From: Pseudonocardia autotrophica
Lineage (GTDB): Bacteria; Actinomycetota; Actinomycetes; Mycobacteriales; Pseudonocardiaceae
Assembly (NCBI RefSeq): GCF_003945385.1
Contig: NZ_AP018920.1
Span: forward strand, 1,302,001-1,366,000
Direction: 5' to 3'
DNA length: 64,000 nucleotides
Part shown: positions 9,560 through 39,406 of the stretch, piece after piece
Position numbering within the stretch: position 1 is the first letter of the stretch
Layout of the letters: each line of letters begins with the position of its first letter
Position numbers and translations under genes: made by a program
The notes under the pieces: model-generated
The model's database searches: none
Seen by the model: the letters and a program-made list of their open reading frames with translations, nothing else
What the model was told of the DNA's origin: nothing

Positions 9560-9725
9560 ATGACAGGTTGTTCCCCGCCGCTGTATCCGCCGCCGTCGCG
9601 TGAGCGGGCGGTGCGCATTGTCGCCGAGGTCGGTCGGACCACGACTCACCGTGGGGGGCGATGACCGCCGTCGCCGCCGGGCTCGGCGTCGGGGACCTGG
9701 TCCAGCGCTGGTTCGCCGAGCCTAG
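9560..9725 (+). pseudogene. IS3-family OrfA remnant
   Basis: Two short pieces resemble the N-terminal helix-turn-helix of IS3 OrfA: PSRERAVRIVAEVG, then after a stop TAVAAGLGVGDLVQRWFAE, as in (R/F)RERAVRxV ... LGV...LRRWV. It ends abruptly at the OCD gene; no terminal repeats or OrfB remain. Confidence 0.5.
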
Positions 9726-12775: not shown

Positions 12776-13791
12776 GCCTGACCTTCAGCATCCGCCTGAA
12801 CAACGACCTCGAAGTCCGCACGCTGATCGACATCGCGCGAGTGGCGGAGGCTCACGGATTCGACCAGATCTGGGTGTCCAACGATCTGTTCCTGCGGTCC
12901 GGCCCGATCATTCTCTCGGCCATCGCCCAGCACACGGAACGGATCAGGATCGGGTCGGGGATCCTCAATCCCTACTCCATCCATCCCTCCGAGATCGCAA
13001 TGATGGCCGCGACCCTGCAGGAGGTGTCCGGTGGACGTTTCCTGTTGGGACTCGGCGCAGGCGCCGAGGATTTCCTCGACTGGGCGGGACTCGGGCGCCC
13101 CAAACCGCTCACCACCACCCGCGAGGCGATCATTGCGATCCGCGCACTGCTCGCTGGGAAGTCGCCATCGGATGTACCCGGTTCCGGCGTGGGGTGGACG
13201 TCGCGCGCGCGTCTGGCTGCCGGCGAGGGGCACACCCCGATCTACGTCGGCGGGATGAGCCCGAAGATGTTGGCCATGGCGGGCGCGCACGCCGACGGCG
13301 TCCTGCCCCTGCTCTATCCACCAGAACACTTCGCCACCGCCGCGGCGCAGATCGCCGACGGCGCGCGGGAGGCCGGTCGCACCCTCGCCGACATCGACCT
13401 CCCGGCCTGCTTCTGGTGCTGTGTGGACGACGACCCGGAGCGCGCGTCGGCGGAGCTGGCGGACAAGATCGCCTACTACGGCGCGTCGTTCGCGCCGTAC
13501 CTACTGTCCAAGGCGGGCCTGACCGTCGAGGACTTCGGCCCGATCCAGGAAGCACTCGCCGACGGCGACACCGCCAAGGCCCGCTCGCTGGTCACACCGA
13601 CGATGCTCGGCCTGGGTATCGCCGGCGGCCCGGATGCCGTGATCTTACGCTGCCGAGGGTTGATGGCCGACGGTGCCACCCACCTGTCGTTCGGGCCGCC
13701 ACTGGGCCTCGACCCGCAGACCGCGGTACACACCCTGGGTGAGCGGGTTCTGCCCGCGATCCGGGCCCAGGTCGAGACGATGTCGTCGTGA
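12772..13791 (+). CDS. luciferase-like (LLM) flavin/F420-dependent oxidoreductase
   Basis: A 339-residue TIM-barrel protein of the luciferase-like superfamily, closest in look to the methylene-H4MPT reductase-like branch: ARVAEAHGFDQIWVSNDLF at the start, RIRIGSGILNPYSIHPSEIAMMAATLQE, then GRFLLGLGAGAEDFL. Such members use F420 or FMN. It overlaps ridA by 4 bases. With RidA, an OCD-like gene and a PucR regulator it resembles a rut-like amine or N-heterocycle pathway, but it is not RutA itself. Whether it is a monooxygenase or an F420 reductase cannot be decided from sequence. Confidence 0.85.
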   Translation: MSLTFSIRLNNDLEVRTLIDIARVAEAHGFDQIWVSNDLFLRSGPIILSAIAQHTERIRIGSGILNPYSIHPSEIAMMAATLQEVSGGRFLLGLGAGAEDFLDWAGLGRPKPLTTTREAIIAIRALLAGKSPSDVPGSGVGWTSRARLAAGEGHTPIYVGGMSPKMLAMAGAHADGVLPLLYPPEHFATAAAQIADGAREAGRTLADIDLPACFWCCVDDDPERASAELADKIAYYGASFAPYLLSKAGLTVEDFGPIQEALADGDTAKARSLVTPTMLGLGIAGGPDAVILRCRGLMADGATHLSFGPPLGLDPQTAVHTLGERVLPAIRAQVETMSS

Positions 13792-13919
13792 TCTCGAGCA
13801 GGGACGGGGGCGACATCGGGCCGGAGGTGCGGCGAGACGGGCACGCCGAGCCGGCCCACGAGATCATCTGCGGCGAGATCTCCTGCTCATCGCCCAGCAG
13901 TCGCTGAGCCGTCCCGAGC

Positions 13920-14150
13920 CTGTCAACGGCGGACGAGTGTATGCGTCGGGTGCGTTGTCGTGGCCCTCTCCACACGAGGCGTGTCGCCGCGGACGGGAAC
14001 GAAGGGAACGATCCCGTCGTGCGGTCGCACCAGAAGCTTGTCCGTGATGTCGGGTCGACCGTCGCCAGAGCGATCGGGATCGATCAGTGTCTGTGTGTCC
14101 TCGACGGTCACGAAGCCGGCCGGATCTCCTCGTGGCGATACGGCCACGGG
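13920..14150 (-). pseudogene. decayed second copy of the PPOX gene
   Basis: On the minus strand the words VAVSPRGDPAGFVTVED, TLIDPDR, LLVRPHDGIVPFVP and RGDTPRVE match residues 60-125 of the PPOX protein at 6421-7035. Both ends are missing and the frame is not continued by family sequence. It is inverted relative to the permease that follows. Confidence 0.75.
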
Positions 14151-14348
14151 GTGCGTGGTAACTCAATCGTCATCAAGTAGATCTTTCGAGGAAAAGGGCG
14201 TCGAGTACGCGTATTCAACCCGCTCCGTGACCTGCGGGTGAGCACCCGGAAAATGTCTGATCACGATGTGGCCGGGTCGGCCGTGCGGCGATCTTCCGGG
14301 TGCGGCGTGCTCTTCCGGTACCTGAGTCGAAGAGTTGGCGTCAGAGCG
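14151..14348. other. non-coding leader upstream of palindrome D
   Basis: About 200 bases without recognisable coding sequence, between the PPOX fragment and palindrome copy D. Confidence 0.35.
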
Positions 14349-14366
14349 ACTCGACACCTGTAGGAG
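14349..14366. promoter_or_regulatory. 18-bp palindrome, copy D (upstream of the MHS permease)
   Basis: ACTCGACA-CC-TGTAGGAG, the most diverged left arm of the four. It is 134 bases before the permease start and is followed by the same GATTCAGTCA...CCATAATCT block as copy B. Confidence 0.55.
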
Positions 14367-14499
14367 TACCGACACATGGATTCAGTCATTTTGTGTGCTG
14401 CCCTTCGACGGTGCGCGGTGCCATAATCTGTCGATTGGATCAGCAGTCCGAACGAACTCGGGACTCGGCAATGTTCCGTACTGATCAGAGTGGAGAACG

Positions 14500-15819
14500 G
14501 TGACAACTCAGCGAGAGGCAGTCGACCGTACGAAAATGCGTAAGGTGACACTGTCAAGCTTCCTCGGTCAGACGCTCGAGTCCTACGACTTCCTCCTCTA
14601 TGGGACTACTGCGGCCCTGGTTTTCGACAAGGTGTTCTTTCCTGATCTCGATCCGATCGCCGGCACGCTTGCGGCGTTGTCCACCTTTGCGGTCGGCTTC
14701 GTGGCCAGGCCGGTCGGTGGGGCATTCTTCGGACATTTCGGTGACCGGGTGGGGCGGAAGTCGATCTTTGCGATCACCCTGCTGCTGATGGGCATCGTGA
14801 CCGTCGGCATCGGTCTCCTGCCGGGCTACGCCACCATCGGAGTCGCCGCGCCTCTGATTCTGGTCGTATTCCGTTTCGTGCAGGGCTTCGCCGTCGGTGG
14901 CGAATGGGCTGGGGCATCGCTCATGGTGCTCGAACAGGCACCCACCAAGAGGCGAGGGCTCTTCGCCAGCGCCATCGGCGTCGGGACCTCGGCCGGAGTG
15001 TTGTTGTCCACCGGCGCGGTAGCGCTGACATCTCAGATGGACGCCGAAGCTTTCCTGGCATGGGGTTGGCGCATACCGTTCCTCGCCAGTCTCCCGCTCA
15101 TTCTGTTCGCGCTCTACGTCCGGATGCGGCTCCCGGAGCCCGAGGTATTCGCGAAAGCAAAGGAGGACCGGAAGCGAGCACGCCACCCGCTGGTCACGCT
15201 GTTCTCCACGCACCGACGAAGCATGCTGCTGGTCATCCTGATGTCGCTGGCCGAGTCGGTTCCGTTCTTCCTGGCCTCGGTGTGGGTACTGTCCTATGCG
15301 CCGCAGTATTTCGGTATCGACAGGTCCTTCCTTCTTGCCTGCGTGACGATCAGTGCGGCGATCGGGTTGGTGACCATACCGGCGTTCGCCGCCCTGTCCG
15401 ACCGGATCGGCCGCCGCCGTCTCTGTCTCGCTAGCTCGCTCGCTATCGCGCTGTTGACGTTCCCGTTCTTCTGGGCGCTGGAGAGTACGCTGCCAGTGAT
15501 CATCGTGCTCACCTACATCGTTCTCATCAACGGTGGCCACGACGCGATCGCCAGCGTCCAGTCGTCCTACTACGCGGAGCTGTTCGAGCTCCGGATCCGC
15601 TACAGCGGCACAGCATTGAGTCGCCAGCTCGGCGCCATGATCGGTGGCGGATTCGCGCCGTTCATCGCCACGGCATTGGTCGCGCTCTCCGGGGGCAGCT
15701 GGATCCTGGTTGCCTGCTATATGATGCTCGCCTCACTGGTTGCGGCTGTGGCGACGTACTTCGCACCAGAGACCTACCGGTCCGATCTGGCCAGTACCTC
15801 GTCGCCCGGCCGAGCCTGA
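14500..15819 (+). CDS. MHS-family MFS transporter (metabolite:H+ symporter)
   Basis: A 439-residue inner-membrane symporter with the 12-helix MFS pattern. Family marks: LGQTLESYDFLLYG in helix 1, FGHFGDRVGRKSIF between helices 2 and 3, RFVQGFAVGGEWAGASLMVLE in helix 5, and AALSDRIGRRRLC in the second half. MHS members import organic acids such as shikimate, 2-oxoglutarate or proline betaine. The GTG start has GGAGAA upstream. Palindrome D lies in its leader, and a truncated paralogue with palindrome B sits at 5.9-6.3 kb. It probably imports the substrate of the neighbouring enzymes. Confidence 0.9.
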   Translation: MTTQREAVDRTKMRKVTLSSFLGQTLESYDFLLYGTTAALVFDKVFFPDLDPIAGTLAALSTFAVGFVARPVGGAFFGHFGDRVGRKSIFAITLLLMGIVTVGIGLLPGYATIGVAAPLILVVFRFVQGFAVGGEWAGASLMVLEQAPTKRRGLFASAIGVGTSAGVLLSTGAVALTSQMDAEAFLAWGWRIPFLASLPLILFALYVRMRLPEPEVFAKAKEDRKRARHPLVTLFSTHRRSMLLVILMSLAESVPFFLASVWVLSYAPQYFGIDRSFLLACVTISAAIGLVTIPAFAALSDRIGRRRLCLASSLAIALLTFPFFWALESTLPVIIVLTYIVLINGGHDAIASVQSSYYAELFELRIRYSGTALSRQLGAMIGGGFAPFIATALVALSGGSWILVACYMMLASLVAAVATYFAPETYRSDLASTSSPGRA

Positions 15820-22655: not shown

Positions 22656-23663
22656 TCAAGACTGCATGGTGTCGGCTCGGGTATCTCCGTGCAGGTGGTC
22701 GTCGTCCGGCGCGCTGGAGTCGGTCTCCGGGGCTCGACCGGGGGCGGACGGGGTGCCCGCCCTGGTCGCCGCCACGTGTCGGAGCATCTCCACGGCCGCC
22801 TGCTGGAGCGGTGAGAAGAACTTCGACTCCCGGTGGAACAGTCCGATGCCCTCGACCAGGTGCGCATCGGTGATCGCGACGCTGCGCAACCGGCCGGCGT
22901 CGACGTCGTCGGCGACGGCGTAGGACGGGGCGAGGCACCCCCATCCGTTCGCGGCCACGGCGCGCTTCATGGCCTCGGCGTGCCCGAGCCGCATGACGTA
23001 GCTCAGCTCGTCCATCCCGTGGCTCCGCAGCTGCGCGCCCAGCGTGCGGTCGAACGCCACGCCCGCGGGGACTCCCACGAGCGGCAGATCGGCCACCCCG
23101 GCGAGGGTGATCTCGTCACCGTCCGGTGGCCCGTCCGGGGCGGCGGCGAGCACCAGCGGCTCCTCCCACAGCTTCTCGGCGTGCAGCGGATCGGGTTCGA
23201 GCTCGTCGGACCAGGTGGCGACGGCGAAGTCCGCGTTGCCGGTCGCCACGCTGCGCAGCGCCGCCGCCGGCTCGCTGATGTGGGCGGTGATGTCGGCCCC
23301 GGCCCGCTCGTGGCGCAGTGCGGTGAGCAGCGGGGGCACCAGGTAGGTGCCGATCGCCATGCTCGTGGCCACCGTCAATGACCCGGCGAGGCCCGCGCTC
23401 AGGTTCTCGATGTCGCGGCGGACCTGGGTGCTGCCGGCGAGCACGTCGGCGGCCCAGAGGTGGAATCGGTGCCCGGCCTCGGTCAGCGCCAGGCGCCGGC
23501 CGTCCCGGACGAACAGTGGGGCGTCGACGGCCTTCTCCAGGATCCGCAGCTGCGCCGACACCCACGGCTGCGCCACCCGCAGCCGCTCGGCGGCACGGGT
23601 CACGCCCCCTTCCTGGACCACGGTGCAGAACAGGTCGAGGCGACGCAGCTGGAGGTGAAGCAT
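22656..23663 (-). CDS. LysR-family regulator of the divergent catabolic operon
   Basis: A 335-residue LysR protein: N-terminal helix-turn-helix (LRRLDLFCTVVQEGGVTRAAERL ... QPWVSAQLRILEKAV) and a periplasmic-binding-like effector domain. It is divergent from the nine-gene operon starting at 23762 and is its likely activator, answering to a substrate or intermediate. A palindrome ATAC-N8-GTAT overlaps its start codon, which implies self-regulation. Confidence 0.9.
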   Translation of the reverse strand: MLHLQLRRLDLFCTVVQEGGVTRAAERLRVAQPWVSAQLRILEKAVDAPLFVRDGRRLALTEAGHRFHLWAADVLAGSTQVRRDIENLSAGLAGSLTVATSMAIGTYLVPPLLTALRHERAGADITAHISEPAAALRSVATGNADFAVATWSDELEPDPLHAEKLWEEPLVLAAAPDGPPDGDEITLAGVADLPLVGVPAGVAFDRTLGAQLRSHGMDELSYVMRLGHAEAMKRAVAANGWGCLAPSYAVADDVDAGRLRSVAITDAHLVEGIGLFHRESKFFSPLQQAAVEMLRHVAATRAGTPSAPGRAPETDSSAPDDDHLHGDTRADTMQS

Positions 23664-23677
23664 ACGAAGAATCGTAT
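23662..23677. promoter_or_regulatory. LysR-type operator overlapping the lysR start codon
   Basis: ATACGA-AGAA-TCGTAT is a perfect 6-bp inverted repeat and fits the ATAC/GTAT (T-N11-A-like) LysR box. It sits at the lysR start, 85 bases upstream of the divergent operon start. Confidence 0.6.
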
Positions 23678-23761
23678 CGATTCATTGCAAGACTCGTCAT
23701 GGTGTTATGTGATGCGGCTCCCTAGCGTCCGTTCACACCACCACGGACGAGGAGGTCTGCG

Positions 23762-24913
23762 ATGAACCCGCTGTTCGGCGGCAGCACCCTCAAGCTCGGC
23801 CTGTTCTGCACCAACGGCCCCGGTGCGTCCCAGACGCTGGTGCCGGAGGCGCACGACACGGCGTGGAGCATGTCGTTACGGACAGCGCAGGCGGCCGACC
23901 GCGCCGGCCTCGAGGCGGTCGTTCCGTTCGCCCGCTGGAAGGGCTATCCGGAGAACCGGCCCGAGCACCGGTCCGGGCGCGTGCTGGACCCGTTCACCTG
24001 GGCGGCCGGGATCGCCGCCGCCACCACGGACATCGGTGTCTTCGCCACCTCGCACGCCCCGACGCTGCACCCGATCGTCGCCGCGAAGCAGGCGGCGACC
24101 GTCGACCACATCTCCGGCGGCCGCTTCGCGCTGAACGTGGTGGGCGGCTGGAACAAGCCGGAGCTGGAGATGTTCGGGGCTCCGCTGCGTGAGCACGACG
24201 AGCGCTACCGCCAGCTCGACGAGTGGCTGCAGGTGGCCCGCAGGCTCTGGACCGAGACCGACGAGTTCGACTTCCACGGCTCGTTCTACGACGTCGTCGG
24301 CGGTGTGTCGGAACCGAAGCCGGTCCAGCCCGCGATCCCGATCATGAACGCCGGCGGCTCACCGCGGGGCATGCGCTTCGCCGCCGAGCACGCCGACCTG
24401 TGCTTCGTGATCGTGCACTCGGAGGACGAGGCGCAGATCCGCGACCAGATCCAGGGCTACAAGCAGATGGCCCGCGACGAGTTCGGCCGCGAGGTCCGGG
24501 TCTGGACCCACACGGTCGTCGTGCAGCGGGACACCGTCGCCGAGGCCGAGGCGTACTACCGGCGGTTCTCGGTCGAGCAGCAGGACGTCGAGAGCGTCGA
24601 CGCCTGGATGCGGCTGCAGGCCGCGAACACCGAACTGATGCCCCCGGCCGTCATGGAGGCCATGCGGCAGCGCTTCGCCGCGGGAGCCGGCGGGTTCCCG
24701 CTGGTCGGCACCGCCGACACGATCGCCGACCGGCTCGGCATGCTCAGCCGGGCCGGGATCGAGGGGGCGTTGCTGACCTGGGTGGACTACGACGCCGGCA
24801 TCGCCGACCTCGCCCGGGACGTGCTGCCGCTGCTCGAGGGGGCCGGGCTGCGCTCGCCGGTCGCCCGGAGCGCGGCGCGCAGCGTCCTGCCGGAGCCGGC
24901 GGTGACCGGATGA
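23762..24913 (+). CDS. RutA-like FMN-dependent monooxygenase (luciferase-like)
   Basis: A 383-residue group C flavin monooxygenase. Its core closely follows the E. coli RutA pattern: THAxTLHPIVAAKQAATVDHISGGRF, LNVVGGWNKPELEMFG, the RYRQLDEWLQVARRLW helix, FHGSFYDV, then AGGSPRGMRFAAEHADLCF and near the end LLTWVDYDAGIADL. RutA-type enzymes use reduced FMN and O2, and known members (RutA, DszA, HcbA1) work through a flavin-N5-oxide. First gene of the operon, GAGGAGG seven bases upstream; its stop overlaps the FAH gene start (ATGA). No flavin reductase is in the operon, so reduced FMN must come from elsewhere. Confidence 0.88.
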   Translation: MNPLFGGSTLKLGLFCTNGPGASQTLVPEAHDTAWSMSLRTAQAADRAGLEAVVPFARWKGYPENRPEHRSGRVLDPFTWAAGIAAATTDIGVFATSHAPTLHPIVAAKQAATVDHISGGRFALNVVGGWNKPELEMFGAPLREHDERYRQLDEWLQVARRLWTETDEFDFHGSFYDVVGGVSEPKPVQPAIPIMNAGGSPRGMRFAAEHADLCFVIVHSEDEAQIRDQIQGYKQMARDEFGREVRVWTHTVVVQRDTVAEAEAYYRRFSVEQQDVESVDAWMRLQAANTELMPPAVMEAMRQRFAAGAGGFPLVGTADTIADRLGMLSRAGIEGALLTWVDYDAGIADLARDVLPLLEGAGLRSPVARSAARSVLPEPAVTG

Positions 24914-25779
24914 GGCTCGCCCGCTTCCACACCCCGTCCGGGGAGCCCGGCTTCGGCGTCGTCGAGGGGGACCGGGTCGTGCGGCTGGACCACCGGATCG
25001 CCTCGTTCGAGTCGGTGCTGGCCGAACGGCCGCAGCCGCGCGCCGACGACCCCCGGGGCCCGGCGGCCGGCCTGCGGTGGGCCCCACCCGTCGGGGACCA
25101 CCCGAAGATCGTCTGTGTCGGCTTCAACTACGCGGCCCACGCCGCGGAGTCGGAGCGCTCACCGGACGGGACCCCGCAGCGGCCGACGTTGTTCACCCGG
25201 TTCACCGACTCGTTCGTCGGAGCGGGCACGCCCGTGGTCCGGCCGGCGCTCGACGACTCGCTGGACTGGGAGGGCGAGGCCGCGCTGGTGATCGGCGCGG
25301 CGGGGCGCCGGATCGCCGCCGAGGATGCCTGGCGGCACGTCGCCGGCGTCACCTGTGTGGCCGAGAACAGCGTCCGCAACTGGCAGCTGCACTCGGGTCA
25401 GGCGACCGCCGGCAAGAACTGGCACCACAGCGGCGCCGTGGGCCCGTGGGTCACGACCACCGATGAGGTCGGCACCGGACCGCTGCGCGTCACCACCCGG
25501 CTCAACGGGGCGACGGTGCAGGACGACACCACCGACCGGCTCACCTTCGGCTTCGCCGAGCTGGTCGCCTACGTCAGCACGTTCACGCCGCTGCGGCCCG
25601 GCGACCTGATCGCGACCGGCACACCGCAGGGCATCGGGCTGCGCCGTGACCCGCCGCGGTTCCTGCGCCCCGGCGACGAGATCGAGGTCGAGGTCTCCGG
25701 CGTGGGCGTCCTGCGGCACGGCGTGGTCGACGAGACACCGGCCCCACTGGGCCGCGAGATGCTGGAGGCGACCCGGTGA
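24910..25779 (+). CDS. fumarylacetoacetate hydrolase (FAH) family protein
   Basis: A 289-residue hydrolase/isomerase/decarboxylase of the FAH fold. Signs: VCVGFNYAAHAAE (near 68-80), LFTRFTDSFVG, the metal-binding DWEGEAALVIG (Glu residues), TATGTPQGIGL near 235 and PGDEIEVEVSGVG. Family members hydrolyse acylpyruvates or isomerise/decarboxylate oxo-diacids after aromatic ring cleavage. In this operon it would act after the bicupin dioxygenase. Start and stop overlap the neighbours by 4 bases (ATGA, GTGA), giving tight coupling. Confidence 0.9.
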   Translation: MRLARFHTPSGEPGFGVVEGDRVVRLDHRIASFESVLAERPQPRADDPRGPAAGLRWAPPVGDHPKIVCVGFNYAAHAAESERSPDGTPQRPTLFTRFTDSFVGAGTPVVRPALDDSLDWEGEAALVIGAAGRRIAAEDAWRHVAGVTCVAENSVRNWQLHSGQATAGKNWHHSGAVGPWVTTTDEVGTGPLRVTTRLNGATVQDDTTDRLTFGFAELVAYVSTFTPLRPGDLIATGTPQGIGLRRDPPRFLRPGDEIEVEVSGVGVLRHGVVDETPAPLGREMLEATR

Positions 25780-26708
25780 AGCTCTGGACCGAGGACGACG
25801 TGCGGTCCCGGCTGACCCTGCCCCAGGTGATCGACTCGCTGGAGGCGGTGCTGTCCCACGAGGCGGCCGGCTCCGCGTGGAACCTGGACAAGACCATGAC
25901 GACCTGGCCGGACGGCGAGGCCCGAGGCAGCGCGCACGCGCTGGGCGCGCTCGACCGCGACGCCGATCTGGCGATCTTCAAGACCTGGGTGAACACCCCG
26001 GCCGGTGCGAGCGCGCTGATGACCGTGTTCACCGCGGGCGACGGCGCGACCCTCGGCGTCGCCGAGGCGGGTGCGGCCGGTGCGCTGCGGACCGCGGCGA
26101 TCTCCGGCGTGGCGACCCGCCTGATGGCCGACCCGGACGCCGACGAGCTCGCCGTGCTGGGTGCGGGACGCCAGGCGTTGCGCCAGGTCGAGGCCGTCGC
26201 GGCGGTCCGCCCGCTGCGGCGGGTCCGGCTGTGGAACCGCACCACCGACCGCGCCCACACGCTGGCCGAGCAGGTCCGCGACGAGCTGGGACTCGAGGTC
26301 GTCGTCGCCGGGTCGGTCGACGAGGCGACCCGGGACGCCCCGGTCGTCACCCTGGTCACCCGCGCCGCGGAGCCGTTCCTGCGGCCCGAGCACCTCGCGC
26401 ACGGCGCCCACCTGAACGCGGTCGGCGCGATCCTGCCCGGCTACGCCGAGTTCGACCCGGCGCTGCTGCGGGAGTCCGCGCTGACCGTGGTGGACAGCGA
26501 GGGCAACGCGCGACGCGGGTCCCGCGAGCTGCGCGAGTTCTTCGGGCCGGCGGACGACGCCGACTGGGGGGCCGTTCGCCGGCTCTGCGACGTCGTCGCC
26601 GGGAAGGCCGAGCGGCCCTCCGGCGCCCGCGTGACGGTGTTCAAGGGGATGGGCATGGGCCTGTCCGACCTGGCGGTCGCCCGCCTGATCGTGGGAGGAC
26701 CCCGGTGA
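25776..26708 (+). CDS. ornithine cyclodeaminase / mu-crystallin family protein
   Basis: A 310-residue NAD(P)-binding protein of the OCD family: KTWVNTPAGASALMTVF in the substrate domain (Lys positioned for imine chemistry), GALRTAAISGVATRLM, and the Rossmann motif VLGAGRQALRQVEAV near 128. Starts with GTG overlapping the FAH stop. Likely acts as an imine reductase, dehydrogenase or deaminase on an amino acid-like fragment, implying a nitrogen-containing substrate for the operon. It is a paralogue in type of the OCD gene at 9722, though not a close copy. Confidence 0.88.
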   Translation: MKLWTEDDVRSRLTLPQVIDSLEAVLSHEAAGSAWNLDKTMTTWPDGEARGSAHALGALDRDADLAIFKTWVNTPAGASALMTVFTAGDGATLGVAEAGAAGALRTAAISGVATRLMADPDADELAVLGAGRQALRQVEAVAAVRPLRRVRLWNRTTDRAHTLAEQVRDELGLEVVVAGSVDEATRDAPVVTLVTRAAEPFLRPEHLAHGAHLNAVGAILPGYAEFDPALLRESALTVVDSEGNARRGSRELREFFGPADDADWGAVRRLCDVVAGKAERPSGARVTVFKGMGMGLSDLAVARLIVGGPR

Positions 26709-27625
26709 AGTTCCGCAGCGACCCCGTCCGGATCCGGGGGTCCATCGCCCCGGTCATCACCCCGTTCACCGACGACGGCGCGCTCGACCTCGCGTCCCTG
26801 CGCGGGCTGGTCCGGTGGCAGCTCGAGTCCGGCTCGCACGGCGTCTCGATCGGCGGCTCCACCGGGGAGCCGTCGGCGCAGACCGTCGCGGAGCGGATCG
26901 AGGCGATTCGCGCCGTCGCCGCCGAGATCGACGACGCCGTGCCGTTCCTGCCCGGCACCGGCTCGGCGAAGCTGGACGAGACCCTCGAGATCACCGCCGC
27001 CGCCCGGGACGCCGGCGCCGACGCCGCCCTGGTGATCACGCCCTACTACGCCCGCCCGACGCAGGAAGCGCTCTACCGGTGGTACCGCACGATCGCCGCG
27101 GAGTTCCCCGACCTGCCGATCGTGATCTACAACGTGCCGTCCCGGACGGCCGTCGACGTCGCCCCGGAGACGGTGGCCCGGCTGTTCGCCGACTGCGAGA
27201 ACGTGGTCGGGATCAAGGAGACCACCAAGGACTTCGAGCACTTCTCCCGGGTGCTGCACCTGTGCGGGCGCGAGCTGCTGGTGTGGTCGGGCATCGAGCT
27301 GCTCGGTCTGCCGCTGCTCGCGCTCGGCGGGGCCGGGTTCATCTCCGCGGTGTCCAACCTGGCCCCGTCGGCGGTCGCCCGGATGTACGAGGCCTGGGAG
27401 TCGGGCGACCACGAGGCCGCCCGCGAGCTGCACTACGGCCTGCACCCGTTGGTCGATCTCCTGTTCGTCGAGACCAACCCGGCTCCCGCGAAGTGGGTCC
27501 TGCACCGGCAGGAGCGCCTGGCCTCGGCGCACGTCCGGCCCCCGTTGCTCCCGCTCAGTGACGATGGTGTGCCCCGGGTCCGCGCCCTGCTCGAGCAGGG
27601 CGCGGCGGTCCTCGGACGGTCCTGA
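26705..27625 (+). CDS. dihydrodipicolinate synthase (DapA)-family aldolase/lyase
   Basis: A 306-residue class I lyase. The pyruvate-binding loop SIGGSTGEPSAQT (near 48-60), Tyr in VIYNVPSRTAVD (near 141) and Schiff-base Lys in VVGIKETTKD (near 170) are all in place, so it should form an imine with pyruvate or a 2-oxo acid. In a catabolic operon the likely reaction is retro-aldol cleavage or dehydration of a 2-oxo acid rather than lysine synthesis. The GTG start overlaps the OCD stop by GTGA; codons before it in the same frame are OCD shadow. Confidence 0.88.
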   Translation: MKFRSDPVRIRGSIAPVITPFTDDGALDLASLRGLVRWQLESGSHGVSIGGSTGEPSAQTVAERIEAIRAVAAEIDDAVPFLPGTGSAKLDETLEITAAARDAGADAALVITPYYARPTQEALYRWYRTIAAEFPDLPIVIYNVPSRTAVDVAPETVARLFADCENVVGIKETTKDFEHFSRVLHLCGRELLVWSGIELLGLPLLALGGAGFISAVSNLAPSAVARMYEAWESGDHEAARELHYGLHPLVDLLFVETNPAPAKWVLHRQERLASAHVRPPLLPLSDDGVPRVRALLEQGAAVLGRS

Positions 27626-27669
27626 GCCCCACCCGCGCCCGTCCCGGGCCCACCCGAGGAGAGACGACG

Positions 27670-29118
<1,449 letters not shown>

Positions 29119-29135
29119 TCTCGAAGGAGACCACT

Positions 29136-30539
29136 GTGGACAGTAATGTCGCGAATAAGGAGATCCTGACCAACGCCTTCTACATGGCGACGCCGTCGCA
29201 GTCCTGGACCGGTCTCTGGGCGCACCCCGGGTCCGACGCCATGAGCTACAACAGGCTCGGCTTCTGGACCGACCTGGCGCGCACCGCGGAACGCGGCCTG
29301 ATCGACGGCATCTTCCTCGCCGACGGGCTCGGCATCCACGACGTCTACCGGGGGTCGCCGGACGCGATCATGCGGGCCGGTGGGATGTTCCCGGTCAACG
29401 ACCCGATGATGATGATCCCGGCGATGGCGGCGGCCACATCGGACCTGTGCTTCGGGGTGACCGCCAACTCCAGCTACGAGCCCCCGTACCTGCTGGCGCG
29501 CAGGTTCTCCACGCTCGACCACCTCACCGAGGGACGGGTGAGCTGGAACGTCGTCACGGGGTTCCAGCCCTCAGCCGCGCGGGCGATGGGGGTCGAGCCC
29601 GTTCGGCACGACCAGCGTTACGACGTGGCCGAGGAGTACATGGACCTCATGTACCGGCTGTGGGAGCAGAGCTGGGAGGACGGCGCGGCGGTCCGGGACC
29701 GGGAGCGCCGGGTGTTCACCGATCCCGCCCGGGTGCACCGCATCCGGACCGAGGGCCGCTACGCCTGCGAGGCGTTCCACCCGTGCGAGCCGTCGCCGCA
29801 GCGCACGCCGTTCATCTACTCGGCGGGCGCGTCGGCGCGGGGCATGCGCTTCGCCGGCACGCACGCCGAAGCCGCCTTCATGTCGGTGAGCGACAAGGGC
29901 CACGCGAGCCGGATCGTCGACGGGTACCGCAAGGCCGCCGTCGACGCCGGCCGCGGTGCCGACAGTGTGAAGGTCTTCAACGCGATCACCGTCGTCGTCG
30001 CCCCGACCGAGGCCGAGGCCCGCGACATCGAGGCGCAGTGCCGCGAGTTCAGCGACGGCGAGGGCAACCTCGCGATGCTCTCCGGGTTCATCGGTCAGGA
30101 CCTGTCGAAGTACGGCTGGGACGATCCGGTCGAGCACGTCGAGAGCGACGCGATGCAGTCCGTGCTCGACGCCATGACCCGTGAGAACGGGGGCCGCACG
30201 GTCCGGATCCGGGACATCGCGTCGTTCAGCGGGCTGGCCGGCAGCGAGGCCTATGTGGTCGGCTCGCCCTCCCAGGTCTGCGACGAGCTGATCTCCTGGG
30301 TCGACGGGACCGGTATCGACGGCTTCAACCTGGTCCGCACGATCGAGCCGGGCGGGCTCCGCTCGTTCACCGAGCTCGTCGTGCCGGAGCTGCAGGACCG
30401 CGGCCGCTACAAGACCGCGTACCGGCCGGGCACCTTCCGCGAGAAGCTGTTCCCGGACGGTGGGCCGCACCTGCCCGCCGACCACATCGGATCCCGGTAC
30501 CGGCGCACCGGCGTCGCGGCGGGCGGGTCGGCCTCGTGA
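29136..30539 (+). CDS. NtaA/SnaA/DszA-family FMN-dependent monooxygenase
   Basis: A 467-residue group C flavin monooxygenase of the nitrilotriacetate/EDTA/dibenzothiophene-sulfone monooxygenase family. Family marks: LARTAERGLIDGIFLADGLG, NDPMMMIPAMAAATSDLCFGVTANSSYEPPYLLARRFSTLDHL, GRVSWNVVTGFQPSAARAMG, and the RYDVAEEYMDLMYRLWE helix. GTG 29136 is chosen because GAAGGAGA lies 5 bases before it; ATG 29115, overlapping the permease stop, is the alternative. It needs reduced FMN supplied externally. It is the second flavin monooxygenase of the operon and is coupled to the P450 gene (GTGA overlap). Confidence 0.88.
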   Translation: MDSNVANKEILTNAFYMATPSQSWTGLWAHPGSDAMSYNRLGFWTDLARTAERGLIDGIFLADGLGIHDVYRGSPDAIMRAGGMFPVNDPMMMIPAMAAATSDLCFGVTANSSYEPPYLLARRFSTLDHLTEGRVSWNVVTGFQPSAARAMGVEPVRHDQRYDVAEEYMDLMYRLWEQSWEDGAAVRDRERRVFTDPARVHRIRTEGRYACEAFHPCEPSPQRTPFIYSAGASARGMRFAGTHAEAAFMSVSDKGHASRIVDGYRKAAVDAGRGADSVKVFNAITVVVAPTEAEARDIEAQCREFSDGEGNLAMLSGFIGQDLSKYGWDDPVEHVESDAMQSVLDAMTRENGGRTVRIRDIASFSGLAGSEAYVVGSPSQVCDELISWVDGTGIDGFNLVRTIEPGGLRSFTELVVPELQDRGRYKTAYRPGTFREKLFPDGGPHLPADHIGSRYRRTGVAAGGSAS

Positions 30540-31729
30540 CGAACGCCGTGGACTTCGACCCCTACTCCGCGCACCTGAGCGAACCCGGGGTGTGGGACGC
30601 CTACGCCGCCGCCCGCGCAGCCGGGCCCGCCGCGTGGTCGGGTCGCCGTGGTGGCTTCTGGGTGCTGACGCGGTTCGACGACGTCCGCGCCGCACTGCGC
30701 GACCCGCAGACGTTCTCGTCGGGCTCGGGCCACCGGATCCCGACCGACGGCAGCCAGCGGGCGATCCCGATCGACTTCGATCCGCCCCTGCACACCGCCT
30801 ACCGCCGGCTGATGACCGCAGCACTGTCCCCGGCACGGGTACGGGAGCTGAAACCGTTCCTCGAACGCACCGTCGCCGACCTCGTCGACCGGTTCGTCGC
30901 GGCGGGTGGCGGCGAGTTCGTCCGCGAGGTCGCGCTGCCGCTGCCGCTGCTCGTGCTCACCGAGCTCATCGGTTTCGACCCGGCGACCGTCGCTCAGTTC
31001 CGCGCCGTCACCGAGCAGATGTGGTCGGGCCTCGCCGACGACGACGAGGAGGTCGACTTCGCCGGTGCGCGGGCCCGCGTCGACGAGCTGATGCGGACCG
31101 AGATCGCCGCGCACCGCGCCGACGGGCGGACGGGCTTCGTCACCGACCTGCTCGACGCCGAGATCGACGGGCGCCCGCTCGACGAGGACGAGATCATCAG
31201 CATCCTCGTCACCTTCGCCGTCGCCGGGCACGAGACCACGATGAACTCGGCGAGCACCCTGGTGCACCTGCTCGTCACCGAGCCCGGCCAGCAGGACCGG
31301 TTACGGGCGGACCCCGGCCTGGCACCCCGGTTCGTCGAGGAGATGCTGCGCCACCGCAGCCCGGCCCAGAACTTCGCGCGCCGGGCGACCTGCCCGGCCG
31401 GCGTCGGTGGGCAGGACATCGCCACCGGCGATGCGGTCCTGCTGTCCTTCGCCGCGGCCAACCGGGACCCGGAGCGCTTCGCCGACCCGGACCGCTTCGA
31501 CCCAGACCGGGACACCCGCGGCCATCTCGGATTCGGCTGGGGCATCCACCAGTGCATGGGGGCCGCGCTGGCGCGCTCGGAACTGGCGATCCTGCTCACC
31601 CGGCTCTGCGCCCACCCGCCGGTCGCGGCGGACGGCGAGGTGCGCTGGAGCGGTCTGCAGGGCGGCAACCACCTCGGCCCCACGACGTTGCCGGTCCGGT
31701 TCGGCCCGGCCCGCACCGAGAAGGGATGA
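30536..31729 (+). CDS. cytochrome P450
   Basis: A 397-residue soluble bacterial P450. Motifs: I-helix AVAGHETTMN (near 225), ExxR in VEEMLRHRSP, and the haem loop FGWGIHQCMG with Cys340. PxxF-like DFDPPLHTAYRRLM near 81-94 is the C-helix region. The ferredoxin gene follows after 7 bases and is its probable electron donor; no reductase is adjacent, so the FprA at 8095 or another must serve. It likely hydroxylates or dealkylates the operon's substrate early in the pathway. Confidence 0.93.
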   Translation: MTNAVDFDPYSAHLSEPGVWDAYAAARAAGPAAWSGRRGGFWVLTRFDDVRAALRDPQTFSSGSGHRIPTDGSQRAIPIDFDPPLHTAYRRLMTAALSPARVRELKPFLERTVADLVDRFVAAGGGEFVREVALPLPLLVLTELIGFDPATVAQFRAVTEQMWSGLADDDEEVDFAGARARVDELMRTEIAAHRADGRTGFVTDLLDAEIDGRPLDEDEIISILVTFAVAGHETTMNSASTLVHLLVTEPGQQDRLRADPGLAPRFVEEMLRHRSPAQNFARRATCPAGVGGQDIATGDAVLLSFAAANRDPERFADPDRFDPDRDTRGHLGFGWGIHQCMGAALARSELAILLTRLCAHPPVAADGEVRWSGLQGGNHLGPTTLPVRFGPARTEKG

Positions 31730-31736
31730 CCCGACG

Positions 31737-31940
31737 ATGAGCTACCGCGTGCACATCGACGAGACGCTGTGCTTCGGCTACGGCAACTGCATGGTCACCG
31801 CCCCCGAGGTGTTCGACCTCGACGCCGACACGAGCATCGCCGTCGTCCTGCCCGGCCGCCCGGTCGACGAGGACGGCCCGGCCCTGCGCGAGGCCGTGGC
31901 GGACTGCCCGGCGCGAGCCATCGCGCTGCACCGGACCTGA
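31737..31940 (+). CDS. [3Fe-4S] ferredoxin, P450-associated
   Basis: A 67-residue ferredoxin of the kind encoded beside actinobacterial P450s. Three cysteines, C12-x5-C18 (CFGYGNC) and C57 in ADCPARAI, bind one [3Fe-4S] cluster; the residue where a [4Fe-4S] protein has its extra Cys is not Cys. It directly follows the P450 gene. Confidence 0.92.
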   Translation: MSYRVHIDETLCFGYGNCMVTAPEVFDLDADTSIAVVLPGRPVDEDGPALREAVADCPARAIALHRT

Positions 31941-32001
31941 CCCCTGCCGGCACCGAGCCGGCCCGAGTCGTACCGGACACACCACACGGAGAGGAACGCA
32001 C

Positions 32002-33123
32002 ATGACCGCCACTGACGTGTCCCACGCCGTCGCCACGGTGGGGGAGGGACCCGCGCAGCCCACCCCCTGGGCGCCGCTGAGGATCACCGCGGCCGAGATC
32101 CGGGAGACCGTCGACCGGCTGTCCCAGGGGGCCGCCCCCGCCAACGGCCGGCGGTCGGCGGTGCTGGTGCACCCCGAGTCGGGCACCGGCCGCAGCTTCG
32201 CCCCCGGGGTGGAGGTCGTGATCGAGGTGTTGCTGCCCGGCGAACGGACGACACCGGTGCGCCGCAACTCCAGCCTCGTCCAGATCGGGATCGAGGGTTC
32301 CGGGACCGTCCGGGTCGGGGACACGTCGCTGGAGCTGGACACCCGCGACGTGGTGAGCGTGCCCTCGATGAAACCGCACCGGTTCGAGAACACCGGCGAG
32401 CAGCGGTGGACCCGGCTGGCGTACTCCAACGCCCCGCTGCTGGAGTTCCTCGGCACCCACTACTGGGAGGAGCTCTCCGAGGACTGGATCCCCGGGGTCC
32501 CGGTCGACGGGCCGATCGACATGGACGAGGCCGACGAGGTCGCCGACCGCGGCTCCGCACCCGACCACGAGGTGTCGCCGACCGGGGCGCGCCTGCGCGG
32601 CTACGAGTACCTGGTCGACATCGAGCCCGTGCCGAACCGGCCGCTGCACTGGCCCTACCGGCCCGTCGCGGACCTGATGTCGCAGACCCTCGGCGACGGC
32701 AGGCGCACGATCATGGCGCTCTACAACCCGGCGACCGAGCGGCGGCAGGGGGCGACCGGCAGCTTCTTCGTCACCCTCTCCCGCATCCCGCAGGGTGCCC
32801 GGCCGCGGCCGGAGGGGCCCGGCCACCGGCACAGTTCCGTCGCCATCAACTACCACCTCGACGGCACCGGCTACTCGGTCGTCGACGGGCAGCGAATCGA
32901 CTTCGAGCCGGGCGACCTGCTGCTGTCCGCGCCGTCCTGGCGGGAGCACGCGCACTACCCGAGCGAGACCGGGCTGACCGTCTACACGGTCCAGGACCAC
33001 CCGCAGCACATCGGCATGGAGTCGCTGATCTGGCAGGAGGACCTGCGCGGGCCGATCCTCGCGCTCGGGCTGGAGAAGGGACAGACCGGCTACGTCGCGC
33101 CGCGGAACTGGGACGACCGGTAA
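32002..33123 (+). CDS. bicupin ring-cleavage dioxygenase, gentisate/salicylate 1,2-dioxygenase-like
   Basis: A 373-residue double cupin of the gentisate/1-hydroxy-2-naphthoate/salicylate dioxygenase family, non-haem Fe(II) enzymes that cleave between a hydroxyl and its neighbouring carboxylate or amino carbon. In classical members the iron is in the N-terminal cupin. Here that cupin reads GERTTPVRRNSS in place of HxH and keeps only the late His of KPHRFEN, whereas the C-terminal cupin has the full pattern: HRH (GPGHRHSSVAINYHL) and WREHAHY. GGAGAGGA precedes the ATG. Last gene of the operon, probably feeding the FAH-family hydrolase. Confidence 0.85.
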   Translation: MTATDVSHAVATVGEGPAQPTPWAPLRITAAEIRETVDRLSQGAAPANGRRSAVLVHPESGTGRSFAPGVEVVIEVLLPGERTTPVRRNSSLVQIGIEGSGTVRVGDTSLELDTRDVVSVPSMKPHRFENTGEQRWTRLAYSNAPLLEFLGTHYWEELSEDWIPGVPVDGPIDMDEADEVADRGSAPDHEVSPTGARLRGYEYLVDIEPVPNRPLHWPYRPVADLMSQTLGDGRRTIMALYNPATERRQGATGSFFVTLSRIPQGARPRPEGPGHRHSSVAINYHLDGTGYSVVDGQRIDFEPGDLLLSAPSWREHAHYPSETGLTVYTVQDHPQHIGMESLIWQEDLRGPILALGLEKGQTGYVAPRNWDDR

Positions 33124-34113: not shown

Positions 34114-34884
34114 TCACGCCCTGCCGAGCAGCGCCAGGCCGACCGGACCGGGCGGCAGCAGCGCGGACACCCGCACCGTGCCGTCGGTGCGCATCTCGGC
34201 GGTCGTCTCCCGCCCCAGGACGCGGACCCGGTAGCGGCCCGCGGCGGGCAGCAGGGGCGACGTCGGACGGACGGTGCCGCGGTCGTGGTGACCGGTGATC
34301 TCGTGCGCCCGGCCGAGTACCGCGGCGGCAGCCGCGACGTCCCCGCGGGAGACGAGCTCGCGCACCCGGGTCGACGAGCACCCCGCGAGCAGCGGCACGC
34401 CGTGCGCCTCGAACCCGTGCCGCGGGCCGAGCCGGCGCAGCAGCGTCACGTCGCCCGCCCCGCGGCGGCCGAACCGGAAGTTCGCACCGACCACCACGTC
34501 GCTCGCCCGCAGGCCCCGCACCAGGACCTCCCGGACGAAGTCGACGGCCGGGGTGTCGGCGACGGCCTCGCAGAACGGCAGCACCAGCACGGCGTCCGCG
34601 CCGCGTTCGAGGGCCAGCTCCGCGCGCTGCTCCAGCGACACGATGGCGGTGGTGTCGCGGCCGGGCCCGGCGATCGTCGCCGGATGCGGGTCGAACGTGG
34701 TGAGCACGACCGGGAGACCCCGCCGCCCGCCGAGCTCGACGGCGCGGCCGAGCAGGCGGGCGTGGCCACGGTGCAGGCCGTCGAACACCCCGAGCGTGAC
34801 GACCGAACGGCCCCAGCTCCACGGGATCTCCCGGGGCCCGTACCAGTAGGCCCGTTCCGGATCGGTGCGCAGTGCCGCCGTCAT
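34114..34884 (-). CDS. stand-alone FAD synthetase (RibF N-terminal domain)
   Basis: A 256-residue protein with the FMN adenylyltransferase half of bifunctional RibF: GVFDGLHRGHARLL (nucleotidyltransferase HxGH near 35-38), TFDPHPATIAG, VVGANFRFGRRGAGD and CSSTRVRELVSRGD. The riboflavin kinase half is absent; only ~70 poorly conserved residues follow. It should make FAD from FMN and ATP. GGAGG lies before its ATG. It is the last gene of the phenol operon, 25 bases after catC, suggesting it boosts FAD supply for the flavin-dependent phenol hydroxylase; that role is inferred. Confidence 0.85.
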   Translation of the reverse strand: MTAALRTDPERAYWYGPREIPWSWGRSVVTLGVFDGLHRGHARLLGRAVELGGRRGLPVVLTTFDPHPATIAGPGRDTTAIVSLEQRAELALERGADAVLVLPFCEAVADTPAVDFVREVLVRGLRASDVVVGANFRFGRRGAGDVTLLRRLGPRHGFEAHGVPLLAGCSSTRVRELVSRGDVAAAAAVLGRAHEITGHHDRGTVRPTSPLLPAAGRYRVRVLGRETTAEMRTDGTVRVSALLPPGPVGLALLGRA

Positions 34885-34909
34885 CGTCGACCTCCGGGAC
34901 GGGTGGGTG

Positions 34910-35185
34910 TCAGATCGCCGACGGGTGCGGGCACAACGGGGTGACCTGCACCGTCATGTACGGGAAGAGCGGGAGGTTCCACAGCAGCTCGTGCAGCTCG
35001 TCGGTGGACTCCACGTCGAAGATGCTGACGTTGGAGTACTGCCCGACGACGCGCCAGATGTGGAGCCACTTGCCCTGCTGTTGCAGGCCCTGCGAGTACG
35101 CCTTCTCCCGGGCGATCGTGTCCGCCCGCACGTCGGGATCGAGGTCACGGGGGATGGCGACGTCCATCGTCACGTGGAAGAGCAT
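34910..35185 (-). CDS. catC: muconolactone isomerase
   Basis: A 91-residue enzyme converting (+)-muconolactone to 3-oxoadipate enol-lactone. MLFHVTMDVAIPRDLDPDVRADTIAREKAYSQ and the WRVVGQYSNVSIFDVESTDELHELLWNLPLFPYM core are typical and the length is standard. Its ATG overlaps the catB stop (TGATG) with GGAGG upstream, so it is translationally coupled. Confidence 0.95.
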   Translation of the reverse strand: MLFHVTMDVAIPRDLDPDVRADTIAREKAYSQGLQQQGKWLHIWRVVGQYSNVSIFDVESTDELHELLWNLPLFPYMTVQVTPLCPHPSAI

Positions 35186-36306
35186 CACGACCTCCGGAAC
35201 GCCCGGATCTTGTCCGGGTCGAGGGTGATCCCGAGGCCGGGGCCCTCGGGAAGGTGCAGGTGCCCGTCGGCGTAGCGGAGCGGCTCGGTGAGCATCTCCT
35301 CGGCCATGAGCAGTGGGCCGAACAGCTCGCTGCCCCAGGTCACCCCGGGTGCGGCACAGGCGAACTGTAACGAGGCCGCGGTGCCGACGGGCGACTCGAT
35401 GGAGGTGGCGCCGTGCGACGGGATCCCCGCGGCGGCGCCGATCGCGGCGATCTCCATGCTGGCCCGCAGGCCACCGCACTTGGTGGTCTTGACGGCGAGG
35501 ATGTCGGCCGCCCGCAGCCGGGCGACCCGTAGCGCGTCGACCGGCGTGCGGACGGTCTCGTCGGCCATTACCGGGACCCGGAGCGCGGCGTTGATCTCGG
35601 CGAGGGCCTCGATCTCGTTCCCCGGTACCGGCTGTTCGATCATCTCGATGCCCGCGTCGGCGAGTGCCGGCAGGTGGGTGAGCGCGGTCAGCCGGTCCCA
35701 GCGGGCGTTGATGTCGACCCGCACGCCGGCCACGCCGGCCAGTTTCTCGGCGACCGCGCAGACCCGGGCGACGTCGGCGGCCGGGTCCTGGGCGCCCATC
35801 TTGAGCTTGAACGAGTGGTGCTGATCGGCGTAGAGCTTGGCGAGAGCTTCCTCGACGACGACCGGAGCGGGCTCGGTGCCCAGTGCCCAGGTCACCGGGA
35901 CCGACGTCCGGGCCGGGCCACCGAGCAGGGTGTGCACCGGAACGTCGAGCGCGCGGGCCCAGGCGTCGTGCAGGGCGATCTCCACCGCGGCCTTGGCGAA
36001 GAGGTTGGCGGCGACCACGTCGGTGACGTCGCGCAGGATGCGCTGCACGTGATCGGCCTGGCGTCCGACGAGTACCGGCGCGATGTACCGCTCGATCACG
36101 AGCTGCATGGTCTCGACGGACTCGCCGCCCCACCACGGCCCGGCGGGCACCACGCCCTCGCCCACACCGGTGATCCCGCCGGCCGTGTGGACGAAGACGT
36201 AGAGGACCGGCTGGGCGTCCATGCCGACCCGGGCGAAGCGGTGCGGCCGCCGCAACGGGATGTCGAGCAGCACGGTCTCGACGCGATCGATGCGCAGGTC
36301 GCTCAC
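35185..36306 (-). CDS. catB: muconate cycloisomerase
   Basis: A 373-residue enolase-superfamily enzyme turning cis,cis-muconate into muconolactone. The KxK catalytic motif (SFKLKMG), metal ligands in VDINARWD, MIEQPV and ADET, and the second-lysine region AVKTTKCGG are all present. The GTG start has GGAGAGGA six bases upstream. It is downstream of catA in the operon. Confidence 0.95.
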   Translation of the reverse strand: MSDLRIDRVETVLLDIPLRRPHRFARVGMDAQPVLYVFVHTAGGITGVGEGVVPAGPWWGGESVETMQLVIERYIAPVLVGRQADHVQRILRDVTDVVAANLFAKAAVEIALHDAWARALDVPVHTLLGGPARTSVPVTWALGTEPAPVVVEEALAKLYADQHHSFKLKMGAQDPAADVARVCAVAEKLAGVAGVRVDINARWDRLTALTHLPALADAGIEMIEQPVPGNEIEALAEINAALRVPVMADETVRTPVDALRVARLRAADILAVKTTKCGGLRASMEIAAIGAAAGIPSHGATSIESPVGTAASLQFACAAPGVTWGSELFGPLLMAEEMLTEPLRYADGHLHLPEGPGLGITLDPDKIRAFRRS

Positions 36307-36400
36307 GACTGTCCTCTCCGGGGGCTGGTGGCCCCGTGGTCTTCTCGGGTGATGCGGGTGGGCCCGGCTCCGGCGGGTGGCCGGAACCGGGCCCGGCCGG

Positions 36401-38826
<2,426 letters not shown>

Positions 38827-38854
38827 TGGTGAGCCCTTCTGCGTCGGAGGGAAG

Positions 38855-39406
38855 TCAAGCGATCTTGAGGAACGTGGATTCGGCGTCGAACCAGCCGGCT
38901 TCGGGGCAGTCCAGGGAGCCGCCCCAGTGGGTGCCGGTCTCGACCGGGCCGATCTCGCGGAAGGCGCCGCGGTAGAACAGCAGCGGCTGGTCGTCGGAGA
39001 CGTCGATGTGCTCGACCTCGCCGACGACGATCAGGTGGTCGCCGCCGTCGTAGGTGCGCCAGGGGCGGCACGAGTAGACCGCGGCCGATCCGACGAGAAC
39101 CGGTGCGGTCGGCCCTTCGGCCCACTGCGGCCCGGGATCGGACGGGCGACCGGCGAAGTGCCATGCGGTGTCGACCTGGGCCGCGCCGAGCACGTTGACC
39201 GCGAACGGTGCGCCGTCGAGCAACCCGCACGCCTTCGACTTGCGGGTCAGCGTGACCTGGCAGAGCGCGGGCTCCAGTGAGACCGCGGTGAACGCGTTGA
39301 CCGTGGCGCCGTGCGGAGTTCCCTCGGAGTTCCGGCAGGTCACCACGGTGACGCCGGTGGCGAACCGGCCGAACGCGATCCGTAGGTCACGGGGCGGGAC
39401 TGGCAT
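38855..39406 (-). CDS. pheA2: flavin reductase, phenol hydroxylase small component
   Basis: A 183-residue flavin reductase of the HpaC/PheA2 family that makes FADH2 from NADH for PheA1. Characteristic: [17 protein letters not shown], then [29 protein letters not shown] and [14 protein letters not shown]. First gene of the operon, divergent from the IclR gene 135 bases away. Confidence 0.92.

Follow-up and report, generated by a model that had tools for sequence, protein, structure and literature searches.

What does a compact run of nine co-oriented genes beside a LysR-type regulator do for its host? The question is raised by a stretch of 64,000 nucleotides from Pseudonocardia autotrophica (contig NZ_AP018920.1, positions 1302001-1366000, called here the window; the host genome comprises 7.54 Mb in two contigs). 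The run most likely constitutes an operon for the breakdown of an aromatic acid, in which import is followed by ring opening through an unusual cupin enzyme and by delivery of the fragments to central metabolism. In its full form, to which we give roughly even odds (about 0.5) on the basis of sequence comparison, the proposal is that this catabolic operon, very likely under LysR control, serves an aromatic acid probably bearing an amino group and has recruited the lower half of a pathway of the homoprotocatechuate type. The operon is conserved and, it appears, undescribed.

Gene content, linkage and distribution

The LysR gene and the nine genes, called A to I, occupy positions 22656-33123 of the window, all ten reading frames are open, and their families were assigned by Pfam and NCBIfam profile scores, which agree with the place and the families given in an earlier note made from the letters of this DNA. 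The regulator gene lies divergently on the minus strand (22656..23663) and passes the cut-offs of PF00126 and PF03466. On the plus strand follow A, a RutA/SfnG-like luciferase-like monooxygenase dependent on flavin mononucleotide (FMN) (23762..24913, PF00296); B, a hydrolase, hydratase or decarboxylase of the FAH family (24910..25779, PF01557, 204.5 bits); C, a reductase of the OCD/mu-crystallin family (25776..26708, PF02423); D, a DapA-like pyruvate aldolase (26705..27625, PF00701); E, a permease of the MHS family (27670..29118); F, an FMN-dependent monooxygenase of the NtaA/DmoA family (29115..30539); G, a cytochrome P450 (30536..31729); H, a three-cysteine ferredoxin (31737..31940); and I, a bicupin and putative ring-cleaving dioxygenase (32002..33123, Cupin_2). 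The 4-base overlaps that had been ascribed to nearly all of the junctions are present at five of the eight (A/B, B/C, C/D, E/F and F/G), and gaps of 44, 7 and 61 bases separate D/E, G/H and H/I. The earlier view of one catabolic-type operon beside the LysR gene is supported.

For comparison we used 29 loci, the window included, in which gene presence was scored by tblastn; they were picked for holding the bicupin gene, whose presence is thus by construction. The set was cleared of the near-duplicates L069, L070, L071 and G652, of the Paraburkholderia plasmid matches H4, H5 and H8, and of the weak bicupin matches L018-L026 and H9-H16. Some of its members are non-independent: the Rhodococcus clusters L039 and L073 are near-identical, Paraburkholderia contributes both L040 and L074, and L036 and L037 overlap on one contig. 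L006 begins near a contig end, so that its missing LysR gene is not interpretable, and matches to D of 26% in L036 and L037 were scored as absent. Counted in this way, the OCD gene is found in 27 of the 29 loci, the FAH gene in 25, D in 24 and the LysR gene in 23. Presence is scarcer for the RutA-like monooxygenase (15/29, at least 77% identity), the P450 (13/29, at least 51%), the MHS permease (10/29, at least 68%) and the NtaA-like monooxygenase (2/29, at least 89%, beyond which the edge of L029 has a relative with 47% identity). The core is therefore formed by the bicupin, the OCD-like reductase, the DapA-like aldolase and the FAH protein; both flavin monooxygenases, the P450 and the permease are swappable and look peripheral because they are missing from many loci, and the idea of the nine genes as a fixed set has to be abandoned. 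The search for conserved gene order that the earlier note had suggested gave a positive answer, as the order is kept in related loci. Together with the rarity of the OCD family, whose two members in 7.54 Mb correspond to an expectation of 0.005 per 20 kb, this conserved order argues that the grouping is not due to chance.

The linkage between the bicupin and the OCD reductase extends to the host's family, for which the best five first-look candidates per genome were scored in each of the genome-wide searches for the bicupin, OCD and D. A bicupin profile at E <= 1e-50 and the OCD reductase at E <= 1e-40 pick the identical 20 of 390 genomes, and the two genes lie less than 8 kb apart in 19 of the 20. 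In the remaining genome (G047) they are separated by 0.9 Mb: the bicupin stands at one site (L035) with a LysR gene, a permease and a different P450, and RutA-like, FAH, OCD, DapA-like and P450 genes stand together at the other (L090). A survey of 72,556 plasmid records gave 16 with a bicupin match and 8 with an OCD match at E <= 1e-30, the latter being the 8 best of the 16 bicupin matches. The trait is rare and patchy: in a class-wide sample, scored on the best few candidates per genome, the bicupin occurs in 2 of 295 genomes, the window's own included.

Core enzymes and the reactions proposed for them

The bicupin has 829 relatives at E <= 1e-20 among 8000 candidates scored, one of them, from P. 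alni, being 86% identical; of the 120 matches listed, those bearing a name are annotated as gentisate 1,2-dioxygenase, dioxygenase, cupin domain-containing protein, AraC-type ligand-binding-domain protein or hypothetical protein. Its solved relatives were entered in the PDB as gentisate dioxygenases and 5-nitrosalicylate dioxygenase; some of those entered under gentisate act on salicylate. His275, His277, Asn283, His316 and His318 are present in all 38 aligned relatives. Three of these residues (His275, His277 and His316) align to histidines of the solved gentisate-type enzymes and correspond to the iron ligands; with these ligands intact, the label of bicupin dioxygenase given earlier seems sound. 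The N-terminal cupin has no HxH, and the His-bearing cupin is the C-terminal one. Positions 216-322 of the bicupin profile align to 2d40 53-160, in the N-terminal cupin of that enzyme, and positions 78-157, weakly, to 2d40 271-348, as a swap of domain order relative to the gentisate-type bicupins would predict. Matches between the repeats run crosswise as well (profile 72-172 to 97-198; profile 266-342 to 3bu7 298-372), so that a true swap is no more than a candidate. The active-site motif of the gentisate-type enzymes, HRHxxxA(L/F)RF, reads HRHSSVAINY in the window, with Asn283 in place of the arginine in 38/38 sequences. A changed substrate pocket, and hence a changed substrate, would be the natural reading of this replacement. 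The arginine is not universal, because the single-cupin 5-nitrosalicylate dioxygenase 8ch4 carries tyrosine at that position (ALYF). Against the profile of the 5-aminosalicylate 1,2-dioxygenase MabB (NF049978, cut-off 650) the bicupin scores 56.4 bits.

The OCD-family reductase is closest in the PDB to thiomorpholine-carboxylate dehydrogenase/mu-crystallin, both ketimine reductases; pyrroline-2-carboxylate reductase, alanine dehydrogenase and iminosuccinate reductase are further solved relatives. The motif lysine and arginine are kept in 24 of 24 loci. The position of the cyclodeaminase aspartate, the catalytic one in the GGDCPGK motif, holds isoleucine or leucine in all 23 covering loci of the 24 aligned, which argues against an ornithine cyclodeaminase, and the score is below the cut-off of all 14 NCBIfam families matched. 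The kinship to imine and ketimine reductases suggests an imine-reducing role, in line with the action on imines expected earlier for this enzyme, and hence a nitrogen-bearing intermediate. A single further OCD-family gene was found in the genome; it stands some 13 kb upstream in the window (9722-10675, minus strand) and is nearest to pyrroline-2-carboxylate reductases, below cut-off. An apparent OCD-DapA fusion is present in L027 (13552-15639, minus strand, genome G038), where the OCD match spans residues 1-195 and is followed in frame by DapA; a similar fusion is the Pseudonocardia database protein P0229.

The aldolase D passes the dapA cut-off (TIGR00674, 266.8 vs 206.15 bits) and stays under that of the DapA-type 2,4-dihydroxyhept-2-ene-1,7-dioate aldolase (TIGR02313, 343.4 vs 396.7 bits). 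A housekeeping DapA function was considered and rejected, given six DHDPS-family genes in the genome (five besides D) and the operon linkage. The Schiff-base lysine and the arginine of the NVPSRT motif are present in 22 of 22 D proteins. Relatives of D at E <= 1e-80, mostly 65-77% identical with a few at 51-54%, occur in 125 of the 390 genomes, including every bicupin genome except G007 (19 of 20). We inspected 12 such loci outside the operon (ten from family genomes without the bicupin, a second copy in G048 and one on an Embleya plasmid): an FAH gene adjoins in 12/12, and an HpaD-like extradiol dioxygenase is near in 10/12, that of Embleya (L072) being over the curated cut-off and the others called by 58-73% identity to it. 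Because its relatives sit beside FAH and HpaD genes, the usual setting of D is homoprotocatechuate catabolism, where the aldol substrate is 4-hydroxy-2-oxoheptane-1,7-dioate; the earlier proposal of a DapA-like enzyme acting as a catabolic lyase is supported by these surroundings. An HpaH-type hydratase is found in two of the 29 loci, L038 and L063, both devoid of D; the former passes the HpaH cut-off and the latter scores 347.9 vs 351.5 bits. Relatives of D and the HpaH-type hydratase therefore indicate a C7 intermediate, pointing to a 2-oxo-1,7-dioate that would be split to pyruvate and a C4 semialdehyde. The FAH protein B has Glu or Asp at all three metal-ligand positions in 22 of 22 loci. 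A loss of one metal ligand in B was considered and discarded, as the alignment pairs its Glu with Asp.

From these families we infer a substrate, a set of reactions and their order. An aromatic acid would be taken up by the MHS permease and then trimmed or hydroxylated by the variable P450/ferredoxin pair and the FMN monooxygenases. The C-terminal cupin would cleave the ring with Fe(II) and O2, probably between the carboxyl- and hydroxyl-bearing carbons, to give a C7 2-oxo-diene-1,7-dioate carrying nitrogen; the C7 dioate skeleton would arise directly if a benzoic acid were cleaved in the salicylate manner. The OCD reductase may next reduce the imino-acid form of the ring-fission product with NAD(P)H, and the FAH protein may hydrate, isomerize or decarboxylate it. 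Finally, the DapA-like aldolase would cleave a 4-hydroxy-2-oxo-heptane-1,7-dioate skeleton, releasing pyruvate together with succinate or aspartate semialdehyde as the C4 semialdehyde-acid.

The histories of the core genes differ. Pairwise-identity matrices of FAH, OCD and D agree with each other (rho 0.90-0.94), and that of the bicupin agrees less with them (rho 0.43-0.58). In the bicupin tree, the window type groups with Rhodococcoides/Gordonia and two loci of the Actinomycetospora genus group (support 100/100); in the OCD and D trees that genus group stays together. For clades named once the first trees had been seen, the bicupin data reject the Actinomycetospora genus group as a clade in the approximately unbiased (AU) test (p-AU 8.8e-48), and the bicupin clade is rejected by the OCD data (p-AU 1.1e-63) and more weakly by D (0.013). 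The ring-cleaving gene has thus been replaced in an operon whose other genes were largely inherited together.

Accessory genes, regulation and neighboring clusters

The best PDB relative of monooxygenase A is RutA (121 bits); A lies below the RutA cut-off of NCBIfam (TIGR03612, 144.8 vs 498.3 bits) and does not reach that of SfnG either. Monooxygenase F passes the NtaA/DmoA profile (TIGR03860, 463.9 bits vs a cut-off of 279.7) and matches dimethyl-sulfide monooxygenase in the PDB with 420.6 bits. The P450 matches PF00067 and carries the heme motif FGWGIHQCMG. Ferredoxin H, recognized by Fer4_13, Fer4_15 and Fer4_19, has three cysteines (12, 18 and 57), as expected for the [3Fe-4S] type under which it had been listed. 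Permease E (TIGR00883, 402 vs 443 bits) opens with a Pro-Thr repeat tail (27670-27800), and most of its relatives align only from about residue 18-48.

Other loci carry additional genes. L001, L030 and L064 add ferredoxin reductase, flavin reductase and AMP-ligase genes, all missing from the run in the window, and scans of accessory genes found amidase, Rieske, caprolactamase-like, CoA-ligase and RibBA-type genes, each in one locus or a few; the scans pointed to no upstream substrate common to the loci. In the Rhodococcus version, RibBA and flavin reductase genes lie inside the operon (L039 828-2596, minus strand; L073 16786-18554, plus strand), which suggests a flavin supply for the FMN monooxygenase.

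The region between lysR and the RutA-like gene is conserved. Its alignment over 12 loci has 34 invariant columns of 133, partly accounted for by the lysR start codon and the ribosome-binding site of A, with blocks in between also kept. One operator-like stretch, CATACGAAGAATCGTATCG (23661..23679, no strand assigned), aligns with differences in 12/12 LysR/RutA-like intergenic regions; it begins with the three-base complement of the lysR start codon and is otherwise intergenic. The pattern CATACGANNAANNNTATCG, derived from the same intergenic sequences on which it was then scored, has one exact match in the 7.54-Mb genome, at this place; one further site with one mismatch lies 27 bases past the provisional start of an open frame and was not used as evidence. 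The conserved pattern fits a pathway-specific regulator and is a candidate operator, and control of the operon by LysR is very likely.

Close to the operon lies a neighboring aromatic cluster (34114-39406, minus strand) with RibF-like, muconate cycloisomerase (over cut-off), HpaB-like monooxygenase and flavin reductase genes. On the other side of the operon, positions 12772-15819 (plus strand) encode a luciferase-like oxidoreductase, closest to F420 types, and after it a second MHS permease with 43% identity to E. Just beyond the window end, another DapA-family gene precedes genes that look by eye like those of TRAP-type transporters (L078 4135-8486, plus strand).

Alternative explanations and known systems

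Several observations weigh against the proposed amino-aromatic operon with a recruited lower half. The bicupin scores 72.2 bits against gentisate 1,2-dioxygenase (TIGR02272, cut-off 442.1), and its cleavage site is not assured because of this far-under score and of the Arg-to-Asn replacement. D is absent nearby in five loci (L035-L038 and L063) and FAH in four (L035, L036, L040 and L074). D itself is not diagnostic, as 106 further genomes hold it without the bicupin, and the FAH of the homoprotocatechuate clusters differs from B (36% identity in Embleya). In L027 the OCD enzyme may be dispensable, or the pathway lost, because the OCD match covers residues 1-195 only. Lastly, no flavin reductase or ferredoxin reductase gene lies within the window's nine-gene run; the genome's flavin reductases closest to that of L028 are 51% and 48% identical and far from the operon.

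The known setting of D is also nitrogen-free, and it is the OCD reductase, as the single gene, that indicates nitrogen in the substrate. An unlikely alternative is a salicylate- or dihydroxybenzoate-type acid. Here a keto acid of the ring-fission product would be reduced or aminated by the OCD enzyme, and succinate semialdehyde would come from the aldolase just as in homoprotocatechuate catabolism. Salicylate-type cleavage of a plain ring already yields a C7 dioate, and the relatives of D belong to clusters of that nitrogen-free pathway; yet the OCD gene is the partner tied tightest to the bicupin and would have no obvious job without nitrogen, and its nearest solved relatives act on imines or ketimines. 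The earlier note had favored a nitrogen heterocycle or an amide-bearing aromatic as the substrate, of which the nitrogen is kept through the OCD enzyme and the heterocycle becomes only one possibility. On this quite doubtful account, the P450 and FMN enzymes would open or hydroxylate a pyridine-type ring or a lactam, the bicupin would cleave a hydroxypyridine carboxylate and the OCD enzyme would reduce a cyclic imine. RutA-like FMN enzymes do attack cyclic amides, L003 has an amidase over cut-off and L004 has caprolactamase/acetophenone-carboxylase-like genes below cut-off, but the monooxygenases are missing from many loci and the relatives of the aldolase use an all-carbon C7 skeleton that a pyridine ring with one carboxylate presumably cannot supply. 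Biosynthesis of a specialized metabolite instead of catabolism is very improbable: P450s, FMN enzymes, the AMP-ligase of some loci and the actinomycete hosts would suit it, but no assembly-line family is represented among the ten genes (Pfam), the permease belongs with the MHS symporters, and lower-pathway genes of the homoprotocatechuate type stand in the window or its sister loci.

Within the preferred reading, that of an amino-bearing aromatic acid, one specific route may be proposed tentatively, as a long shot to be judged as a whole: lysine-pathway chemistry run backwards on a 3-aminosalicylate-type acid and ending in pyruvate and aspartate semialdehyde. Cleavage between the carboxyl and hydroxyl carbons would give 6-amino-2-oxohepta-3,5-dienedioate, which alone would close to dipicolinate; the OCD enzyme would reduce its alpha-imino form, and hydration would lead to 6-amino-4-hydroxy-2-oxoheptanedioate, which is what DapA normally makes, in its open form. 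From it the DapA-like enzyme would then release pyruvate and aspartate semialdehyde, with the nitrogen retained in an amino acid. If this route were true, biosynthetic dihydrodipicolinate chemistry would have been recruited for aromatic catabolism, which would explain how an amino ring-fission product escapes the dead-end pyridine dicarboxylate. More generally, the linkage predicts ring cleavage, imine reduction and C7 aldol cleavage, and the large family formed by the 829 bicupin relatives would be placed in a pathway and, very likely, assigned another substrate.

The literature searched, in which most subscription journals are absent, showed no description of this gene set, in agreement with the earlier note, which recognized no described pathway with it. 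Its nearest counterparts are partial. With the 3-aminobenzoate mab cluster of Comamonas sp. QT12, which comprises the dioxygenase MabB, a predicted deaminase and a predicted hydrolase (PMC9584955), the operon shares the grouping of dioxygenase, deaminase-type and hydrolase genes; the words aldolase and cyclodeaminase are absent from the main text of that paper, and the window's bicupin is far below the MabB cut-off (56 vs 650 bits). With the gentisate-type bicupins (2d40, 3bu7, 3nst) it shares the HxH...HxH motif, but the His-bearing cupin of the window is C-terminal and the arginine of ALRF/AFRF is replaced by Asn283. The OCD reductase has the family, the dinucleotide motif and the Lys/Arg positions in common with mu-crystallin/thiomorpholine-carboxylate dehydrogenase and pyrroline-2-carboxylate reductase, from which it differs by its linkage to a bicupin and by scores below the NCBIfam cut-offs. 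HpaD has no match in the window or in 26 of the 28 other loci, the overlapping L036 and L037 giving a 31% match. The homoprotocatechuate (4-hydroxyphenylacetate) meta pathway, HpaD/HpaG/HpaH/HpaI, shares with the operon the relatives of D and, in L038 and L063, the HpaH-type hydratase; compared with that pathway, the operon has a bicupin in the place of HpaD and an OCD reductase in addition.

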